Shown here one piece after another: positions 11,719 to 22,295 of a stretch of DNA of 22,650 nt. Made by a program: the position numbers and the translations under genes. This DNA comes from a virus. Each line of letters begins with the position of its first letter. Position 1 is the stretch's first letter. The notes beneath the pieces are model-generated. The model had not been told where the DNA came from and did not search any database. It saw only the letters and a list, made by a program, of their open reading frames with translations. The stretch lies in the IMG/VR virus record IMGVR_UViG_3300025120_000611, positions 1 through 22,650 of that record; one strand, 5' to 3'.

Positions 11719-14328
11719 TTACTGAACCACAGTTCCCGGTATTACCTCTCCAGTATTTGAGTCAAAGGTTTGCATTTGTAGTCGGTTTGCTATTGCCTGC
11801 CTCTTTCCCTCTTTAGGCAAAGTCGCCTTATTGGGACCACTCGTAGCACGAGGCTTTTTTGATTTCGTTTCTTCACTTGATTCGCCCGTAATAAGTTCCC
11901 TAGTCTTAGAGAGAATGGGATCTTCACCTGGATTACCCGGTTTAGCTAATACAAACTCAGAAAAGGCGTTGTTAGCACTCATAAAGTGCCTCGAACCATG
12001 CGTGATATAATTACCATTAAGAAATGTTGAAGGAATTTTATCAGAGTTATCCCTAGAAGATGAAATAATGTTGTTATAAAGACTGAAGAAATAGCATTCT
12101 CTGTTAAAGTAAGCTTTCTGGTTGAAGAATGGAAGGGTCTTTATTTGCAGCCCTATGATTTTTTTTTGCACCTTTTCAAAGAGGTCGGCCATCGTGGCTA
12201 ATATTCTACTCTTGCCGTCTGCTATATTATCGTCAGTATAAGGAACTTCCACCTGTAAGCCATCTCTGTAATCACTCTTAAGCAACTTTTTGTAGCCAAT
12301 AATTAAGTCTATGTAATCAGCAAATCTTTCGTCTTTAGATACTAAGCTCTGGTTGATTATTTTCGCATCAGTAGCCTCCACCCGACTTCTATATTCTTTA
12401 AATTCTTCACTGTCTGCTGTTTCCTGATCCTCTATCCACTTTGCCAAATTAAATCTTGATTGATCCAAATCATCTACAAAAATCTTTTTAGTGTCTAAGT
12501 ATTCAATTAGCTGCTTGATATTGAATGTATCGTCAATTACAGCCAATTGAGTAAAATTGTTTAGATAGGGATTTCTTCTTATAGATTCCATTTCATAAGA
12601 CATTAACTCTCCTTGAGCAAAATCTTTTTTAAAGTTTACAGATATAACATTTGAGTTTCGAACACCATGCATAAAGATAATATCTTTCTGATCTTCAATC
12701 TCTTTAAACTCCTTAGTAAATGGACCGAAATCTAACTTCTCTTTAAATGATGAAGTTTGTCTCCTTTCTCTAAGAAGTATGGTATCTTTAAACTTCTTTT
12801 GGTAAGACTCCCAATCAATATCGTCTAGTGCCTCATCCGAGAAAGCCTTCTTGTAAGCCGTTTCATTGCTTGGTTTCGTCTTACCCTCATCGGATAAGTA
12901 GATAAGTCTCTTTATAAGATCCACATCCCCAAACACTAACCTACTTGTTTTATGTTCGTGCATCGGACCTCCACAACTTTGATTAATGAAATCGTTAATT
13001 TCTACATCATTAATCTCAAATAAGCCATAGGTAGTGGACCTTAATTGATTCTTCCTTAAAGCTCCTAGGAATTCAAAGATTGGATCTAAAGCGGACTCTG
13101 GTGTCTTCACAGAAGGGTTAACGTCTATTTTCATCCCCATACTAATGTAGCACTCAGTAAGTAAGTAGTCGCTATCCCATAACTCTTTGTATTCGGTCAT
13201 CTTCTCTTGAATAGCTTGAGTGCTTCCACTTCTCTCCTGGTTTGATGAATACTCTTTATACTCTGGCCCCCTGTGCCGCTGATCCATACGAAGTCTACTC
13301 GCCGCCAAATCGTCTACATTAAACTGACCATCAATGGTAACATCTTTACCTCCTACTGTAACCACTTCAGGAGGACCTCCACCCCTTGAAGTTTTTTCAC
13401 CTTTATTACTTGCGTCAGGCTTTTTTAATCCTAGAGTTATCCCAAACTCCTTTAGTTTTCCCTGATAGTTTCTACAGAAGTCCTTACTTTCTGAGCCTGT
13501 AAGAGGATCATTAAATATCTTATCCATATCATCCCCCAAAATAATCATTATTCTGTAGGGGTCGCCATATACCTGCCCTAAGTATCTTCTAAGCAAGTGC
13601 CTAATATAGGTATTCCAACCATAGGGAGGCAATAAACATCTCTTCCTAGAAGGATCCCGAGTAGTTCTTGGTCCCTTAGTAGGCTTTAACCCCTTAGACA
13701 TCCACACACTGGCGTTTAACTTAACCTTTGAACCCCTAGAAAGGGGAGGATTCATCTTGTCGCCGTCAGCAAACCCTAAGGCACCATGGAATTTTTTAGT
13801 ATAAGCTTTGATCCCCTGAAGAGATCCCATTAGGAACCCTAGGGTTATTACCTTTACATTCTTATCTAAGTCTACCTGAGCGGCTCCCAGACTAACCTCA
13901 AAAGGACCAGCCCACTCACCTAGATCATCCCCTGTTCCAAAAGAAACATAAAATTTATTTAGCTGCTTAAGGCTTGATCCTAAAGGTATGTTAGCCTTAG
14001 CAAGCAACTCGAATGCTGAATTAAGATATGTGTCAATAGGTTTAGTAGTAAGGAGAAAGTACTCTAGTATTTCATTGGTTTCTATAAACTTTAAGTTTAG
14101 GTAACCTCTAGCATTAGCATTAGCAGGAATATTTAAATCGGCTTCAATTAGATTAGGGTTTTTACCTGGAGCGCAGATTAAAAAGTCTGTGTCGAATTCT
14201 TCCTCTCTTATATTCTGCATGACCTGATCCAAGCTATTTATTTTTGCATCCCCTAATTTTTGAGGACCAAAAAAGATACGCTTCATAGTATCAAACTTTT
14301 TTGTTACAATTATGTTTGGAGTGATCAT
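11719..14328 (-). CDS. putative baseplate hub protein (gp27/gpD-like position)
   Basis: 869 aa, lying between a LysM-type wedge gene and the spike gene, the usual place for the hub ring (gp27/gpD/XkdQ). N-terminal residues 1-190 are beta-rich with ILEYFLLTTKPIDTYLNSAF and DDLGEWAGPFEVSLGAAQVD, compatible with tube-like barrels of a hub. A central region has YLGQVYGDPYRIMIILGDD, then a polar, Gly-rich linker (about 305-370). Residues about 560-575 (FMHGVRNSNVISVNF) resemble the 'GxRNxNVLS' segment of hub proteins in other large myophages. It is more than twice the length of T4 gp27, and no lytic catalytic motif is recognised. It starts by ATGA overlap with the gp53-like gene. Hub assignment rests mainly on order and fold-like patterns. 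Confidence 0.55.
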   Translation of the reverse strand: MITPNIIVTKKFDTMKRIFFGPQKLGDAKINSLDQVMQNIREEEFDTDFLICAPGKNPNLIEADLNIPANANARGYLNLKFIETNEILEYFLLTTKPIDTYLNSAFELLAKANIPLGSSLKQLNKFYVSFGTGDDLGEWAGPFEVSLGAAQVDLDKNVKVITLGFLMGSLQGIKAYTKKFHGALGFADGDKMNPPLSRGSKVKLNASVWMSKGLKPTKGPRTTRDPSRKRCLLPPYGWNTYIRHLLRRYLGQVYGDPYRIMIILGDDMDKIFNDPLTGSESKDFCRNYQGKLKEFGITLGLKKPDASNKGEKTSRGGGPPEVVTVGGKDVTIDGQFNVDDLAASRLRMDQRHRGPEYKEYSSNQERSGSTQAIQEKMTEYKELWDSDYLLTECYISMGMKIDVNPSVKTPESALDPIFEFLGALRKNQLRSTTYGLFEINDVEINDFINQSCGGPMHEHKTSRLVFGDVDLIKRLIYLSDEGKTKPSNETAYKKAFSDEALDDIDWESYQKKFKDTILLRERRQTSSFKEKLDFGPFTKEFKEIEDQKDIIFMHGVRNSNVISVNFKKDFAQGELMSYEMESIRRNPYLNNFTQLAVIDDTFNIKQLIEYLDTKKIFVDDLDQSRFNLAKWIEDQETADSEEFKEYRSRVEATDAKIINQSLVSKDERFADYIDLIIGYKKLLKSDYRDGLQVEVPYTDDNIADGKSRILATMADLFEKVQKKIIGLQIKTLPFFNQKAYFNRECYFFSLYNNIISSSRDNSDKIPSTFLNGNYITHGSRHFMSANNAFSEFVLAKPGNPGEDPILSKTRELITGESSEETKSKKPRATSGPNKATLPKEGKRQAIANRLQMQTFDSNTGEVIPGTVVQ

Positions 14329-15563: not shown

Positions 15564-17618
15564 TTAGCCTCCGTTAAGGTCTCCTTGCTTTCCAGTTTCT
15601 GACATGTTAGCGTCTCGATTTCTCTTTATATGTAAGTCCTTTATATCCTGGAGAAGTTCGGCCACTTGTTTACTGTCGGACCCAGCTAAATTTGATTCCG
15701 ACTTTCTTACCCTATCGACAATTCCCATAAGAATGAAATCGGATCTCTGTGTAGCTGCTCGCATTCTCGCATCGGAAGCCTTTTCCTTTTCTTCTTTCAG
15801 TTCTCGTTTTTTAGCAAGTTCTAACATACTCTTAGAGTTTTTAGAGTCATCTTCCATGTATTCACTAAACAATCCATAAAGACCTCCCAGGGCACCACCG
15901 ACAGCCATTCCAGCAACACCAAATATAGATCCCATTCCCGCACCCTTAAGGGCCATTGATCCAACGTCCATAGCATCTCCTGCATCAAGCCCTTCCTTCT
16001 CTTCAATACCTAGACCAGTCTTTGCCATACTCAAGGCTTCGCCTGCCAGCGAAAACCCTAATCCTCCTCCCAGAAGCTTGGCTGAGGTGGGGAGCTTTGG
16101 TACTAGCATTCGAGCCATAGCAACATTTCCCAAATGGTCTCCTGCGCTGCCAAGAAGCTTACCTGCCGTGGTCTCCTGTCCGCCGAGACCTTGGCCTAAC
16201 GCCGCTGCACCCATACCAAGCATACCTACCCCCATGGGTGATTTAAATGCAGACCCAAAGTTTCGTGGCATCCTAGTTTTAATCGCCTCTGTTAAGTTTT
16301 TAATTGCTCCCGTGCTCTTGGTATTAAAAGTATTAAGATAGGCTGAATGTGCTACTTGCCCCTTATTAGTTAAAATATTGGAGTGAGTTAATTTAGTCAT
16401 CGCCTTCTGGGATTTTGCAGGAATTGCTCCTCCCGCCAAGTTTAAAAATGACTTACTTCCTGTTTGCACGGCTGCGAAGAGGTTAACACCCTGAGAAATT
16501 TGAATTAAAGGTAACATCAAATTTGTCACCGCATCTAATGTCATGGGAGCTATTTTTTCGTAATACTTATTAGCTAATTCAGTTTGATTCTTAAGAGTTT
16601 TTTGGTTATCTTCTGCTGTTGATAAAAGTTTTCTATCGTTAGAAGGGCCTGCTACAGCGATATCCTTAAGCATTACAAGATTGGAAGCATCTTGCTGACT
16701 AAGACTATACATTGCTTTCAGTGTATCAACGGCAACATCAAACTCCATTCCTCGGGTTGCCTCAGACATTTGCTGGCCAACTGAAACCATTTTCGCTCTA
16801 GTTTCATCAGCCGATATAGCTCCACGAGCCATGTCTTCAGCAAATTGTTGTATACCTAGTAATTCTCTAGTAGGTCTGGTTGATAAGCCTCCCTTGAATA
16901 AGTTCATAAATGAACCTATCTGCTCTTCTCCTAAACCCTGGAAAGATCCTTTGACATCGGCAAATACTTCTGAAAGGTTTGAGGCGACCTCAGGTCCAAA
17001 CAACGCAAACTGGTTGATGTCCCCTTGCAGCTTTTTAATACCCTCCAGCAAGTCACCCGTAGCCATTTGGTAATCTTTAGCTGATTGAATAACCGAGTCG
17101 TTAAACGACCCTAGTGCCTCATAGTTTCTACCAGTTGCACCTAGTAGATTATTGTTGACATCTCTAAATGATTGTTGATTCTGACCCGTTAGAATTAACT
17201 GCTCAGTTAATCGGAGAGTCCCGCCTTCGGTTTTTCTGATACCTGCGGCAAAGTTGTCAATAAAAGCTTCTGCTGCTCTAAGATAGCCAACACTGCTGTT
17301 ATTGATAGCGGTGGAGTTCTCGTTGATGATCTTTTGTAAGGTAACACTCTGGCCTAAAGCTTTAACATTGATTCTATCGGCCTTTTTAACAACCTCGGTA
17401 CCCTTATTAAGAACATTGTTTGACTGAAGGATTGTGTTACGCAGGTACCTTACTTCATTTAGGTTGTCTAGTTGAACATTCTTAAGGTCACCTGTATTAA
17501 CAGACAGTCGGGTAATCGGATCAACTAAACGATTCGTACCGTCAGTTGAATCCTCCAACGCAGCTACCATGTTTGCGGTCAGTTGATGCTGTGTATTTCT
17601 TAGATTGTTCTTTGCCAT
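15564..17618 (-). CDS. tail tape measure protein
   Basis: 684 aa, almost entirely helical. The first 400 residues are polar helices rich in Gln, Asn, Glu and Leu. Small hydrophobic Gly/Ala segments lie at about 455-475 (PMGVGMLGMGAAALGQGL) and 548-582 (GSMALKGAGMGSIFGVAGMA and GGALGGLYGLF). The charged C-terminus runs KKRELKEEKEKASDARMR. This architecture is that of tape measure proteins (T4 gp29 is 590 aa), which set tail length and enter the cell envelope on infection. With about 0.15 nm of tail per residue, a tail near 100 nm is inferred. The gene starts 2 nt after the preceding stop and is followed by the putative tube initiator, as in T4 (29-48-54). Confidence 0.78.
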   Translation of the reverse strand: MAKNNLRNTQHQLTANMVAALEDSTDGTNRLVDPITRLSVNTGDLKNVQLDNLNEVRYLRNTILQSNNVLNKGTEVVKKADRINVKALGQSVTLQKIINENSTAINNSSVGYLRAAEAFIDNFAAGIRKTEGGTLRLTEQLILTGQNQQSFRDVNNNLLGATGRNYEALGSFNDSVIQSAKDYQMATGDLLEGIKKLQGDINQFALFGPEVASNLSEVFADVKGSFQGLGEEQIGSFMNLFKGGLSTRPTRELLGIQQFAEDMARGAISADETRAKMVSVGQQMSEATRGMEFDVAVDTLKAMYSLSQQDASNLVMLKDIAVAGPSNDRKLLSTAEDNQKTLKNQTELANKYYEKIAPMTLDAVTNLMLPLIQISQGVNLFAAVQTGSKSFLNLAGGAIPAKSQKAMTKLTHSNILTNKGQVAHSAYLNTFNTKSTGAIKNLTEAIKTRMPRNFGSAFKSPMGVGMLGMGAAALGQGLGGQETTAGKLLGSAGDHLGNVAMARMLVPKLPTSAKLLGGGLGFSLAGEALSMAKTGLGIEEKEGLDAGDAMDVGSMALKGAGMGSIFGVAGMAVGGALGGLYGLFSEYMEDDSKNSKSMLELAKKRELKEEKEKASDARMRAATQRSDFILMGIVDRVRKSESNLAGSDSKQVAELLQDIKDLHIKRNRDANMSETGKQGDLNGG

Positions 17619-18578: not shown

Positions 18579-18730
18579 AAGATCTAAAAGTACGTCAGAT
18601 TATTGCTAAGGGAGTCTCAGATTCTAATCGATACACCTCTCCACCAGATGACGATGGCGCAGCAGCAACTCTGGGCATGATGCTACTTTTTCTTATCTTT
18701 TACGCTTTCTACTACGCGGCTACTCAATGA
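18575..18730 (+). CDS. 51-aa predicted single-pass membrane protein
   Basis: The ATG at 18575 overlaps the stop of the preceding gene (ATGA), and the frame is open to a TGA at 18728-18730. It has a charged N-terminal half (MKDLKVRQIIAKG...PPDDDGAA) and a C-terminal hydrophobic segment, residues 33-49 (LGMMLLFLIFYAFYYAA). This would be one membrane span with the N-terminus probably inside. Small phage proteins of this shape include holin-like, spanin-like and superinfection-exclusion proteins, but there is no specific match. Its last 48 nt are antisense to the 3' end of the nuclease gene. The base composition returns to normal exactly at this gene. No Shine-Dalgarno is visible; translation would depend on coupling. 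Confidence 0.5.
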   Translation: MKDLKVRQIIAKGVSDSNRYTSPPDDDGAAATLGMMLLFLIFYAFYYAATQ

Positions 18731-19501
18731 CTTCTTTAGCTCGCGCTGCTCGTCCAGTCTTTTACAGACAACATCCTCTGATTCGAATTTAGGGCAAGCT
18801 TCCTTATACTCACACCAGTTACAGAAGATGTTCTCCTGCGCCCAGAACTCATCCTTCTTCTTCTTTCGAATTCTCCACACCTTATCAATTTGCTGTCTCT
18901 TCCATCTTTCTATCTGAAATCTGGTGAACTTGACGGCAACAAAATTACCTGTTACGGGGTAGTAGTGAGCACAAAAGATATTCTCAAAGGGGACACCATG
19001 AATCTCGTGCATCGCCCATGCGTAGCCCTTTAGCTGGTTGTCATCCATTAGAGTTTTCTTTCTCTTCTCCTTTTTGGATGTTTTGTAGTCAATTACTAGA
19101 TAACCACCATCCCGCCCCTTAACCACTCGGTCAATGATGCCAACGAAGCTGATATCGTTTTTCTCGTCTAAGGGCAAGCTGACTGACTGCTCAGTTGAGA
19201 CAGTTTCCCCCATCTTCTGATTCCAGATCAGAAAGTTCTCCAAACAAGTCTTCATTCTCTCATTCTCATGGAATGGGACTTTGTAAGTCGCTCGTTCCTG
19301 TTCCGCAAGCCTAAGGAGAGACTTTAAGTCATTCTCCTTGTATCCAAGTTCAAATACCTTATGAATGAAAGAACCGAAATTCAAAGCGTCTTCATTCTTG
19401 GCACCAAATCCTGGTAACCGTTCTACATATCTCAGCTTGTATTTCCATAGGCATTGGTCTATGATGTCACTTCGAGAGGCACTGATATTATTTATAAACA
19501 T
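18683..19501 (-). CDS. Cas4/RecB-type PD-(D/E)XK nuclease with Fe-S cluster motif
   Basis: 272 aa. The N-terminus ISASRSDIIDQCLWKYKLRY supplies the first cluster Cys (C17). H47 lies in FGSFIHKVFELG. Catalytic D124 is in GIIDRV, followed by D138-x-K140 (VIDYKTSK), and Q156 and Y160 are in QLKGYAW. The C-terminus has FCNWCEYKEACP (C227, C230, C236). This is the full set of RecB-family nuclease motifs plus a 4-Cys iron-sulphur site, as in Cas4 and AddB. Such phage enzymes act as exonucleases in recombination or DNA processing. The only in-frame ATG upstream of the motifs is at 19501, which shares bases with the start codon of the divergent primase; no Shine-Dalgarno is present. There are no Cas1/Cas2 genes or repeats nearby, so a CRISPR role is not supported. 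Confidence 0.88.
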   Translation of the reverse strand: MFINNISASRSDIIDQCLWKYKLRYVERLPGFGAKNEDALNFGSFIHKVFELGYKENDLKSLLRLAEQERATYKVPFHENERMKTCLENFLIWNQKMGETVSTEQSVSLPLDEKNDISFVGIIDRVVKGRDGGYLVIDYKTSKKEKRKKTLMDDNQLKGYAWAMHEIHGVPFENIFCAHYYPVTGNFVAVKFTRFQIERWKRQQIDKVWRIRKKKKDEFWAQENIFCNWCEYKEACPKFESEDVVCKRLDEQRELKKSLSSRVVESVKDKKK

Positions 19502-20456
19502 GGCGGATAGTTCTTACATTAGAAAGTATTGCTTGAGTAAGTTCCAGTCTAATTATAGACTTACTAGTGATGATGCGGAATTAGTAGTTCCATCATTATT
19601 TCTAGATAACGACTACAAGAGACACATGTCGATTAACCTGGAGACAGGTTTGTGGAGGTGTTTCAAGAGTGGTGAGACTGGGAACTTTGTAAAGCTCTAT
19701 GCGACACTTGAGAAGTGCTCTTTTCAAGAAGCTTATGAGAAGTTTGTATTTGAAGACTTTATGGCGGGACGTGGCCTTAGTCACCGCAAGCCCATTGAAC
19801 CTATCAATCCACACAAGATTAGGTCCAGCCTGGAGGAAGCAGAGCACTTTGAGGAAATCGAAAGCCACCCCTTGATTGATAGTCGTATGCTTCAAGGCTT
19901 TCGCTTCATGATGGCTAAAGAAGGAAAATACAAGGGCAGACTAATTATACCTTTCATCAACTCCAGGAACAAACTCTTTTACTTTCAGGGTCGTGCTATT
20001 AATGGGGAGTTGCCAAAATATCTTAACTGCAAAGACCTCAGGAGTTCACAGGTTCTATACCCTTTTGATTATGCCTCTCACAAGCCCCTGTATATCACTG
20101 AGGGGGTCTTTGACTGCCTTAGCCTACAAGCGGTAGGGTTGAATTCAACAACGACCCTAAGCTGCTTTACGAGCCGCGAACAGATGCTACAACTCAGTCA
20201 GTATCAGGGACCCCTAGTCTGTGCATTTGATAATGATGGGGCTGGGGAAAATGGTAGAAAGAAGTTTATGGACCTTGCACACTGGGTGTGTCGGGGTGAT
20301 TTATTTTCCGTAGTGCCGACCTCACCTTTTAAGGACTGGAACGAGATGCTAGTTAAGGAGGGACCTGACTACCTCAAGGAAGAGGCAGAGCAAATCACCA
20401 AGCTAGACGCACTCTACCTAACGATGCTATCGTATAATAAAGGCCATCTCGTTTGA
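19500..20456 (+). CDS. TOPRIM-domain DNA primase
   Basis: 318 aa from the ATG at 19500. The TOPRIM core is clear: LYITEGVFDCLSL with E201, VCAFDNDGAGENGRKKF with D244 and D246, and a later KDWNEML. These metal-binding acidic residues are those of DnaG/gp61-type primases, which make RNA primers at the replication fork. Residues 40-75 (KRHMSINLETGLWRCFKSGE, then GNFVKLY) align in layout with the second half of a CHC2 zinc domain, but the usual four Cys/His ligands are not present. In-frame ATGs at 19365, 19461 and 19464 would extend it, but into a hydrophobic stretch antisense to the nuclease, so they are not preferred. The last 30 nt overlap the converging 318-aa virion gene. Confidence 0.82.
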   Translation: MADSSYIRKYCLSKFQSNYRLTSDDAELVVPSLFLDNDYKRHMSINLETGLWRCFKSGETGNFVKLYATLEKCSFQEAYEKFVFEDFMAGRGLSHRKPIEPINPHKIRSSLEEAEHFEEIESHPLIDSRMLQGFRFMMAKEGKYKGRLIIPFINSRNKLFYFQGRAINGELPKYLNCKDLRSSQVLYPFDYASHKPLYITEGVFDCLSLQAVGLNSTTTLSCFTSREQMLQLSQYQGPLVCAFDNDGAGENGRKKFMDLAHWVCRGDLFSVVPTSPFKDWNEMLVKEGPDYLKEEAEQITKLDALYLTMLSYNKGHLV

Positions 20457-21383
20457 TACGATCGTTTGATTCAGAGCATTAAACTTAAGTCTAGCAACGT
20501 AGGTTCCTGTCATGGACCCTAAAGTACCATCCAATAATCTAGGGTGCGTTTTCAAGGCTTCAGTATCAAAACTAAACACAACGGTATCCTCGGATGTGGT
20601 ATCCATAACCGAAGAAGTTGCTGTGTATCCTGATACCTCAACTCTAGCGGGTAGATTTCTGTCTTGGTTTTTCTTATAAATCTCAAGCATTGGTTGGGTC
20701 ACTAAGGACTGCTTAAAGAGATTAGTGATGCTTCTATCAATATTGGCGTTCTCAAGAGTAAACTCATTTGTGAACTTGAGATCTACTTTAGACCCTAGTA
20801 CCAAAAAGTTATTCTCAAGCCTTGTGGAGCAACGAAAGAGAAGAGGCTCTGTTACACCAAAGAATCTATCCTCGGTTAAGGTAAACTCATTGATGATTGT
20901 ATCTATATTAGAGCCAACAACGCGCCTAACAGTCCAAACATCAAGGAAATCTCCCGTGGTATCGACTCTGTTTTTTATTTGCTTAGTATTGGGAAAACTT
21001 GAAAGATTAAATTCACCACTAGGTTGAACTGAAGGCTGATTTAGAATTACGGCATATTTACCAGAATCAAGTTTATAGATGCCGGAAGCGTTACCCTCCC
21101 CAGGGTCGTAGTTGCTAGGGTCAAAGTTCGAGTTAGTCGTTACTGAGTTGTTATTGGTGAAGTTCATCAGAACTTGACCAGTTGCAGCATAGTCAATCTC
21201 ACCATCAGTATTAATGACTGAGCTTGGGAATTGATTGTTTGAAGCCTTAAAGACCGATACTCCACTTATCTCGTAGGGATCAGTGTATTGCCCATCATTT
21301 ATAAAGTAGAGCAGAAGAGCAGTTGGGCCTAGAACGGTAGGTCTTTCATGCCTAGTAACGACTTGATTTCCGTTAATTATCAT
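20427..21383 (-). CDS. putative virion structural protein, unknown
   Basis: 318 aa, beta-rich, without membrane segments, with many Asn, Thr and Ser residues and a C-terminal domain (VEVSGYTATSS..., then TGTYVARLKFNALNQTIVS) that looks Ig-like. I do not recognise the family. A Shine-Dalgarno GGAG lies 7 nt before the ATG. That site, the ATG and the next 8 nt all lie inside the -1 frame extension of the gp26-like gene, so the genes are physically coupled. Following a hub-assembly gene, it is probably a tail or baseplate component. It ends 30 nt inside the 3' end of the primase gene on the other strand. Confidence 0.55.
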   Translation of the reverse strand: MIINGNQVVTRHERPTVLGPTALLLYFINDGQYTDPYEISGVSVFKASNNQFPSSVINTDGEIDYAATGQVLMNFTNNNSVTTNSNFDPSNYDPGEGNASGIYKLDSGKYAVILNQPSVQPSGEFNLSSFPNTKQIKNRVDTTGDFLDVWTVRRVVGSNIDTIINEFTLTEDRFFGVTEPLLFRCSTRLENNFLVLGSKVDLKFTNEFTLENANIDRSITNLFKQSLVTQPMLEIYKKNQDRNLPARVEVSGYTATSSVMDTTSEDTVVFSFDTEALKTHPRLLDGTLGSMTGTYVARLKFNALNQTIVSNEMAFIIR

Positions 21384-21551
21384 AGCGATTCTCCAATCTT
21401 GTCATCTCATCTGAGTAGAATTTCAGGAAAGACATCCTTTCTTTCTTCGTCATTGTCTTAACATCAGAGTAAGAAAAACCAATTTTACTTACTAATATGT
21501 AGGCTTGTTGTAGTAGGTCCTCAGAGGTTAAAGTTTCTGTTAGCTCATTGA
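21373..21551 (-). CDS. -1 frame extension of the gp26-like protein (gp51-like position)
   Basis: After a -1 slip at the T run, the frame is open for 59 codons to a TAA at 21373-21375, from TTC AAT GAG onward (FNELTETLTSEDLLQQAY, then SKIGFSYSDVKTMTKKERMS and FLKFYSDEMTRLEN). It has no plausible start codon of its own before the middle (the first ATG encodes M34), so it must be reached from the gp26-like frame. The fused product would be 307 aa. The helical, charged C-terminal pattern (LLQQAYxLV...GFS..DV..M...ER..FL....DEM) resembles the distal domains of phage tail assembly chaperones. The stop overlaps the next gene's start by 11 nt. The alternative is a sequencing error in the homopolymer that splits one normal gene. 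Confidence 0.65.
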
Positions 21552-22295
21552 AAAAAAACCGGCATCTATCGGTACTGCGAGCGTATCTTTATGCCCACAT
21601 TTCCCGCACTTAAATACAAACCTAGGATCAATACCATACTCCGTGACCGTAATCTCTTTAAAAAGAGTCTTAACATCCGCTATTTCCATCATTCCAATGG
21701 CCTTAGATATAAAGACAGGATCGGTATTTTCATTAAGGGAGACTACAAACCTATACAGATTTTTGTAGATAGTTTCCGTGTCCATTAAATATGGCTCTTC
21801 TCTATTCCTAGGAAGTCTAATTACAGCCTCTACCTCTAGTTTGGGAAGGTATACTTTCCTAGGGTCCTCGTAATCTGCTGGAATCTGGTTTAAGTTAAGC
21901 TGCTTGGATAGCTGAATTTTAGATTTAGATTCGTGATTGCAGTTATTACAAACAACCCCAAACTCGTAGTCATCACCATAGGATACCTCCCGCAGCTTCA
22001 TTAAAAGGTAGTTTTTGTCCATGAGAAGAATTTCATTGACATTTATACCTTCGACTGTCTTTTCAAGAAGTTCAGTTACAATATCTTTTTCTATATCCTT
22101 ACCTGTAAGAATCAATTGCTCATCTAAAAACTTTAAAGGAGAAATCTTAATGCCAGTAAAGTCAGTGTAAAACTTACCCCCGGACGGCAAGTTTGTTATG
22201 GTCATAGAGGAATCTTTTATTTTACCGAAAAGATCATCTAGGGCTTTATCTCGTTGACTGCCAATGTCGGCATTAATTTTTTTAGCTTCACTCAT
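21540..22295 (-). CDS. 26: gp26-like baseplate hub assembly protein, short (zero-frame) form
   Basis: 251 aa. Residues 35-60 (NLPSGGKFYTDFTGIKISPL, then DEQLIL), 90-112 (LLMDKNYLLMKLREVSYGDD) and C116xxC119 fit the T4 gp26-type baseplate family: 'LPS.G.FY....i.i.~l...de...', then 'D...ll..lR..SYG..Y...v.C..C'. A second CxxC (C230, C233 in FKCGKCGHK) completes a likely zinc ribbon. T4 gp26 (208 aa) acts in hub assembly, with gene 51 next to it. The zero frame ends three codons after an 8-T run (21551-21558). The gene lies divergently from a uvsW-like gene, echoing the uvsW-25-26-51 neighbourhood of T4. No Shine-Dalgarno is evident before the ATG. Confidence 0.78.
   Translation of the reverse strand: MSEAKKINADIGSQRDKALDDLFGKIKDSSMTITNLPSGGKFYTDFTGIKISPLKFLDEQLILTGKDIEKDIVTELLEKTVEGINVNEILLMDKNYLLMKLREVSYGDDYEFGVVCNNCNHESKSKIQLSKQLNLNQIPADYEDPRKVYLPKLEVEAVIRLPRNREEPYLMDTETIYKNLYRFVVSLNENTDPVFISKAIGMMEIADVKTLFKEITVTEYGIDPRFVFKCGKCGHKDTLAVPIDAGFFSMS
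21552..21558 (-). promoter_or_regulatory. candidate -1 ribosomal frameshift slippery heptamer T TTT TTT
   Basis: In the gp26-like frame the codons read GGT TTT TTT TCA ATG AGC TAA. The heptamer T TTT TTT fits X XXY YYZ, so both P- and A-site tRNAs re-pair perfectly after a -1 slip, and the -1 frame is open for 59 codons. The zero-frame stop lies three codons downstream. I see no internal Shine-Dalgarno at the usual 10-14 nt upstream, and could not compute a downstream stem-loop. Confidence 0.6.

Follow-up and report, generated by a model that had tools for sequence, protein, structure and literature searches.

A probable tail assembly chaperone gene with a predicted −1 frameshift, related to T4 genes 26 and 51, in an uncultured virus lineage

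The window, that is, the whole stretch of DNA analyzed here, is a virus record of 22,650 bases. On its minus strand lies a gene for a gp26-like protein of 251 amino acids (22295..21540), hereafter the short form (TAC-N), which was assigned by Pfam, by PHROG and by its relatives. The junction codons at the end of this gene read GGT TTT TTT TCA ATG AGC TAA on the minus strand. The eight T residues occupy 21558..21551, the heptamer T_TTT_TTT (21552..21558, minus) lies in frame within this run, and the frame-0 stop codon TAA (21540..21542, minus) follows three codons past the heptamer. The −1 frame is open from 21552 to 21376 (FNELTETL...RYDN) and ends with a TAA at 21375-21373. This −1 extension of 59 codons plus stop (TAC-C, gp51 C-terminal-like; 21373..21552, minus) was recognized from the relatives, a codon comparison and a fusion-profile score, and the predicted frameshift fusion would be 307 amino acids long. 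The next gene (318 amino acids; 20427..21383, minus) starts with an ATG at 21383, within the end of the −1 extension, and the gene order around it was the same in the relatives. In the 7,362 codons of the called genes of the window, T_TTT_TTT or T_TTT_TTC occurred once, at the gp26-like junction. An earlier sequence-only reading of this locus had given 251 amino acids, 59 codons, 307 amino acids and three codons to the stop, and all these numbers were correct. It had also noted a −1 frame without an early start codon, which agrees with a first possible start at codon 34 in the window, and an overlap of the end of this frame with the start of the next gene, which the positions of the stop and the ATG bear out.

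The short form matched the Pfam family PF12322 (T4_baseplate) with 56.4 bits (E 4.4e-15; curated cut-off 24.5) and PHROG 150 (baseplate hub) with an E value of 1.5e-13. It was 13-26% identical to the short forms of the named phages with which it was aligned, and it contains two CxxC pairs, which suggests a zinc-ribbon-like part. T4 gp26 and gp51 both matched PF12322 (8.8e-64 and 3.9e-52, respectively); judged by their sequences, they are paralogues of this one family. The gp51 protein consists of a PF12322 domain and a C-terminal addition of about 48 residues, and gp26 has no such extension. T4 differs from the window in having two separate genes, and no slippery site was found at the end of T4 gene 26.

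The conservation of the junction was analyzed in 15 relatives from an IMG/VR scan (71-87% amino acid identity), of which one ends before the junction, leaving 14. Exactly eight T, the same TAA stop and an open −1 frame of 59 codons were found in 14 of 14, so the alignment showed both the slippery site and the two frames to be kept. The first start codon in the −1 frame was at codon 31-34 across the close family, more than halfway through the extension. Synonymous differences per comparable codon pair were then determined by codon-by-codon comparison of 12 sequences. They amounted to about 0.5 per pair across most of the gp26-like gene, to 0.19 in codons 226-240 and to 0.018 in codons 241-251, the final 11 before the stop. 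Past the junction, the value was 0.148 in extension codons 1-10 and 0.56 in extension codons 31-40, where amino acid differences were 0.14. The zone of suppressed synonymous change thus covers the last 26 frame-0 codons and approximately the first 30 extension codons (21463..21620, minus). The low amino acid change of the extension beside its high synonymous change marks the −1 frame as a selected protein; by this codon comparison, the −1 frame is protein-coding and under purifying selection. Synonymous change near zero around the slip site indicates that the nucleotide sequence of the junction is itself selected. Of 231 control ORFs, six carried a slippery heptamer close to the stop; a terminal heptamer together with at least 45 open codons in the −1 frame occurred in 0 of 231.

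One block of 20 nt within the extension, CAAGCCTACATATTAGTAAG (window 21488-21507, minus), was nearly invariant in all relatives, including at synonymous positions. It spans roughly nucleotides 45-64 past the slip site.

The same layout was found in other phages. S-PM2, P-SSM2, Syn9, HTVC008M, KVP40, Aeh1, phiM12 and phiW-14, diverse members of the T4 superfamily that are not T-evens, each have a single PF12322 gene, and in these same eight phages the gp51 C-terminal family phrog_634 matched another frame right at the end of that gene. In all eight, a T_TTT_TTC or T_TTT_TTT site lies at the stop or shortly ahead of it, and about 55-64 codons of −1 frame follow beyond the stop. T_TTT_TTC stood exactly 10 nt upstream of the stop in 80 of 80 cyanophage-type loci, which were recruited by similarity to S-PM2 and are therefore not independent. 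The −1 layout was also found in the more distant XacN1, RAS14, PA5oct and Atu_ph07. The extension is routinely missed by annotation, being unannotated in Aeh1 and PA5oct; in Aeh1, an unannotated gp51 C-terminal domain lies at 118822-119001 on the minus strand (locus L055, about 1320-1502), in the −1 frame of gene 26 behind T_TTT_TTC. According to Sullivan et al. 2010 (PMC3037559), the gp51 of cyanophages reaches only about 20% of its normal length, and Aeh1 lacks gp51. A −1 extension explains both the "reduced" gp51 of the cyanophages and the "missing" gp51 of Aeh1. Like the gp51 C-terminal-like part in the window, the gp51 C-terminal part of the cyanophages and vibriophages with "reduced gp51" is a short ORF right after gp26; it was described in that paper as a truncated separate gene, but is better read, there and in the window, as a −1 extension of gp26.

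In several other phages the frame of the extension is +1 (or −2) and not −1. These were SP-15 (L018, 4639-4913), LIS04 (L019, 4650-4958), GXN1 (L025, 4635-5003), an uncultured phage (L023, 4719-5021) and Microcystis phage Mel-JY01 (L137, near 4723). The sequence NCC CGA TTY just before the stop, common to SP-15, LIS04 and GXN1, is a possible +1 shift site. In the uncultured giant phage LR756511 (L022, 4756-5028), the extension starts with an ATG of its own that overlaps the PF12322 stop (TAATG), so that there it may come from coupling rather than from frameshifting.

The homology of the window extension to the gp51 C-terminus was examined by profile methods. Searched by itself against Pfam and PHROGs, the extension gave nothing credible and no direct PHROG match, and hhalign of the 59 residues against the gp51 C-terminus gave a probability of 13% (E 0.0021), which is weak on its own. 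A nine-sequence profile did not tell the extension apart from its shuffles; the E value with a broader profile was 0.0012. On a profile of the fusion proteins of other phages, the window short form scored 35.7 bits and the fusion 46.6 bits, a gain of 10.9 bits. Shuffled extensions on this profile scored 36.7 bits on average (sd 1.8), and the real score was matched by 1 of 500. A pattern of roughly [S/T]xxDhxxMxxxER (h, hydrophobic) was common to the window extension and the gp51-type C-termini. In the profile search proposed in the sequence-only reading, the evidence was weak for the extension by itself and better for the fusion. The suggestion in the same reading that T4 genes 26 and 51 correspond to the short and the frameshifted form was supported, since both belong to PF12322, only gp51 has the extension, and eight T4-superfamily phages encode that extension in the −1 frame.

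The model of the window protein, built from 10 similar rows, had a pLDDT of 39.7 and was unusable; therefore, a cyanophage relative with an alignment of 55 sequences was modeled instead (pLDDT 89.8). Of the solved chains compared with the N-terminal domain of the relative, the best were RBSTP2171 (Z 7.1), HK97 gp13 (PDB 2ob9; Z 7.1) and YqbN (Z 6.8), over about 85 residues; Z scores of 6.8-7.1 can arise from a shared arrangement alone, but the top matches were consistent in kind. The next matches were a V. cholerae PICI-like-element protein (Z 4.8) and then chains at or below 2.6. The entry 2ob9 is titled as a tail assembly chaperone, and RBSTP2171 and YqbN are chaperone-like proteins. Foldseek found no significant PDB match for the model of the relative, the chaperone match coming from a second aligner, and a sequence search against solved structures found nothing. 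In SP-15, LIS04 and Mel-JY01, the PF12322 gene lies between the tail tube gene and a long tail or tape-measure-like gene, and the slot between tail tube and tape measure is the usual place for a tail assembly chaperone. In the window, the chaperone gene is followed by the 318-amino-acid gene, and the candidate tape measure gene lies about 4 kb downstream, not adjoining. This putative tape measure protein (15564..17618, minus) would have 684 amino acids, with a Gly-rich hydrophobic stretch near the C-terminus; it obtained no Pfam or PHROG tail-family assignment and no phage match by tblastn. The two products had earlier been proposed to chaperone the tape measure or the hub. Their role is better put as that of a tail assembly chaperone for the tape measure than as that of a hub component.

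The sequence-only reading had named a homopolymer read or assembly error as its main alternative, by which the true run would be 7 or 9 T and the gene one frame. Runs of eight bases are prone to length errors, but the relatives, which come from other metagenome assemblies, had exactly eight T in 14 of 14 cases, and no relative covering the junction had 7 or 9 T in one uninterrupted frame. Moreover, the same junction recurs in distant relatives with a run of just 6 T before a C, and the synonymous sites frozen at the junction would be unneeded in a plain fused gene. The alternative was rejected on the count of eight T in the 14 relatives, and we consider a read error here to be hardly credible.

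The other two alternatives accept the sequence as it stands. RNA polymerase might add a base on the eight-T run, so that some mRNAs would encode the long form in one frame. Runs of at least eight T or A can cause polymerase slippage, and the whole close family has eight T; however, other family members have T_TTT_TTC, a run of just 6 T and thus a short one for the polymerase to slip on efficiently, and the heptamer is exactly phased for −1 slippage. Because of these 6-T sites, the ancestral mechanism was most likely ribosomal, and transcriptional slippage appears unlikely. The −1 frame could otherwise be an independent short gene expressed by reinitiation after the stop, giving two separate proteins. 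This would fit P-SSM2 and KVP40, in which an ATG lies just past the stop in the −1 frame (+5 and +2, respectively) and for which databases annotate a separate "gp51". It fits poorly with the window family, where the first start in this frame is at codons 31-34, and with Syn9, HTVC008M and Aeh1, in which the first ATG comes at about +50, preceded in Syn9 by nothing but a TTG at +20. No ATG was present near the junction in 20 of 80 cyanophage loci, and in T4 gp51 the same part is fused to the PF12322 domain. Two separate proteins are accordingly a very improbable outcome.

An RNA stimulator of the slip was sought by three methods. Single-strand folding of the 81 nt past the slip site gave a structure weaker than shuffles (z +1.3), with no hairpin or pseudoknot predicted. 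Alignment folding downstream of the slip site gave one covarying pair and used the T run itself in the fold, and an Rfam search for a stimulatory RNA gave a chance match only. The conserved zone around the slip site suggests that something acts there. It is conceivable, although we are inclined to doubt it, that the frozen zone of about 50 codons without predicted structure hides an unrecognized stimulator, such as a nascent peptide, an mRNA-rRNA contact or an unusual pseudoknot; this would set the ratio of short to long chaperone in a way undescribed for other tail assembly chaperones.

Taken together, the gene very probably encodes a tail assembly chaperone made as a short (26-like) and a long (26-51-like) form by −1 frameshifting. 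From the chaperone-like fold of the relative and the gene position in SP-15 and LIS04, the simplest account is one gene that yields two chaperones, one short and one long. The programmed −1 frameshift with the logic of G and GT, as first proposed, is supported by the in-frame T_TTT_TTT and the open −1 frame conserved in 14 of 14 relatives. That ribosomes shift here, how often they do so and what the two forms bind are inferred. Most ribosomes would read the PF12322 frame to the TAA and produce the 251-amino-acid short form (TAC-N), a putative counterpart of T4 gp26 and lambda gpG. A minority would slip back one base on T_TTT_TTT and read 59 more codons, producing a long form of 307 amino acids (TAC-NC) that would correspond to T4 gp51 and to gpGT of lambda. 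If it works as in lambda, the tape measure protein may be coated by many copies of the short form and few of the long one, whose C-terminal part may recruit subunits of the tail tube or the hub platform.

The slip heptamer of lambda is GGGAAAG. The window gene differs from that of lambda in its heptamer, which is all T, and from those of lambda and HK97 in its protein family by sequence. It is like lambda gpG/gpGT and HK97 gp13 in that a short and a long chaperone would be produced from one gene by a −1 frameshift near the 3' end, and in that the predicted N-terminal fold of the cyanophage relative matches HK97 gp13. In 2022, Vladimirov, Gautam and Davidson (Virology 566:9-15) reportedly identified the tail assembly chaperone genes of T4-like phages, and their abstract is said to name genes 26 and 51. 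Papers citing that work state that some T4-like phages do not frameshift but have two genes, a short one and a longer fusion (PMC10885494), and describe poly-T slip sites in T4-like TAC-N genes (PMC12846349). Short and long chaperones from one gene are known from lambda gpG and gpGT (PMC5009743). By these descriptions, the window gene resembles the T4-like chaperones (gp26/gp51) in its PF12322 short form, in a long form with a C-terminal extension, and in the poly-T −1 site of the frameshifting groups. The cyanophages have T_TTT_TTC and one codon to the stop, whereas the window family has eight T and three codons. The principle of a frameshifted T4-like chaperone was already published in 2022, so the idea of the sequence-only reading is not new. 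Since the general result is published, what is new here is a member in an uncultured lineage, not a new kind.

The rest of the window gave some indication of this lineage. The closest match of its baseplate wedge gene (about 25% identity) was in the genome of an uncultured giant phage; cyanophages and others matched less well. The lineage is apparently marine, judging from the company it keeps. A likeness to T4 was seen in a helicase gene that adjoins the chaperone gene of the window, as uvsW lies a few genes from gene 26 in T4. At 18683-20456, the called coding regions of a PD-(D/E)XK exonuclease gene (minus) and of a primase-like ORF (plus) share 137 nt in head-to-head orientation. The primase-like ORF probably begins at an internal Met near 19500, and hardly any shared sequence would then be left. 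A run of nine A (12159-12167, minus) inside an 869-amino-acid gene of the baseplate region (14328-11719) could be a site of slippage; no alternative frame is obvious there.

With this gene, an uncultured lineage, whose PF12322 proteins are 13-26% identical to those of the aligned named phages, would join the frameshifting T4-like tail assembly chaperones. The finding supports the view of T4 genes 26 and 51 as a duplicated form, without the frameshift, of a recoded gene that is older.
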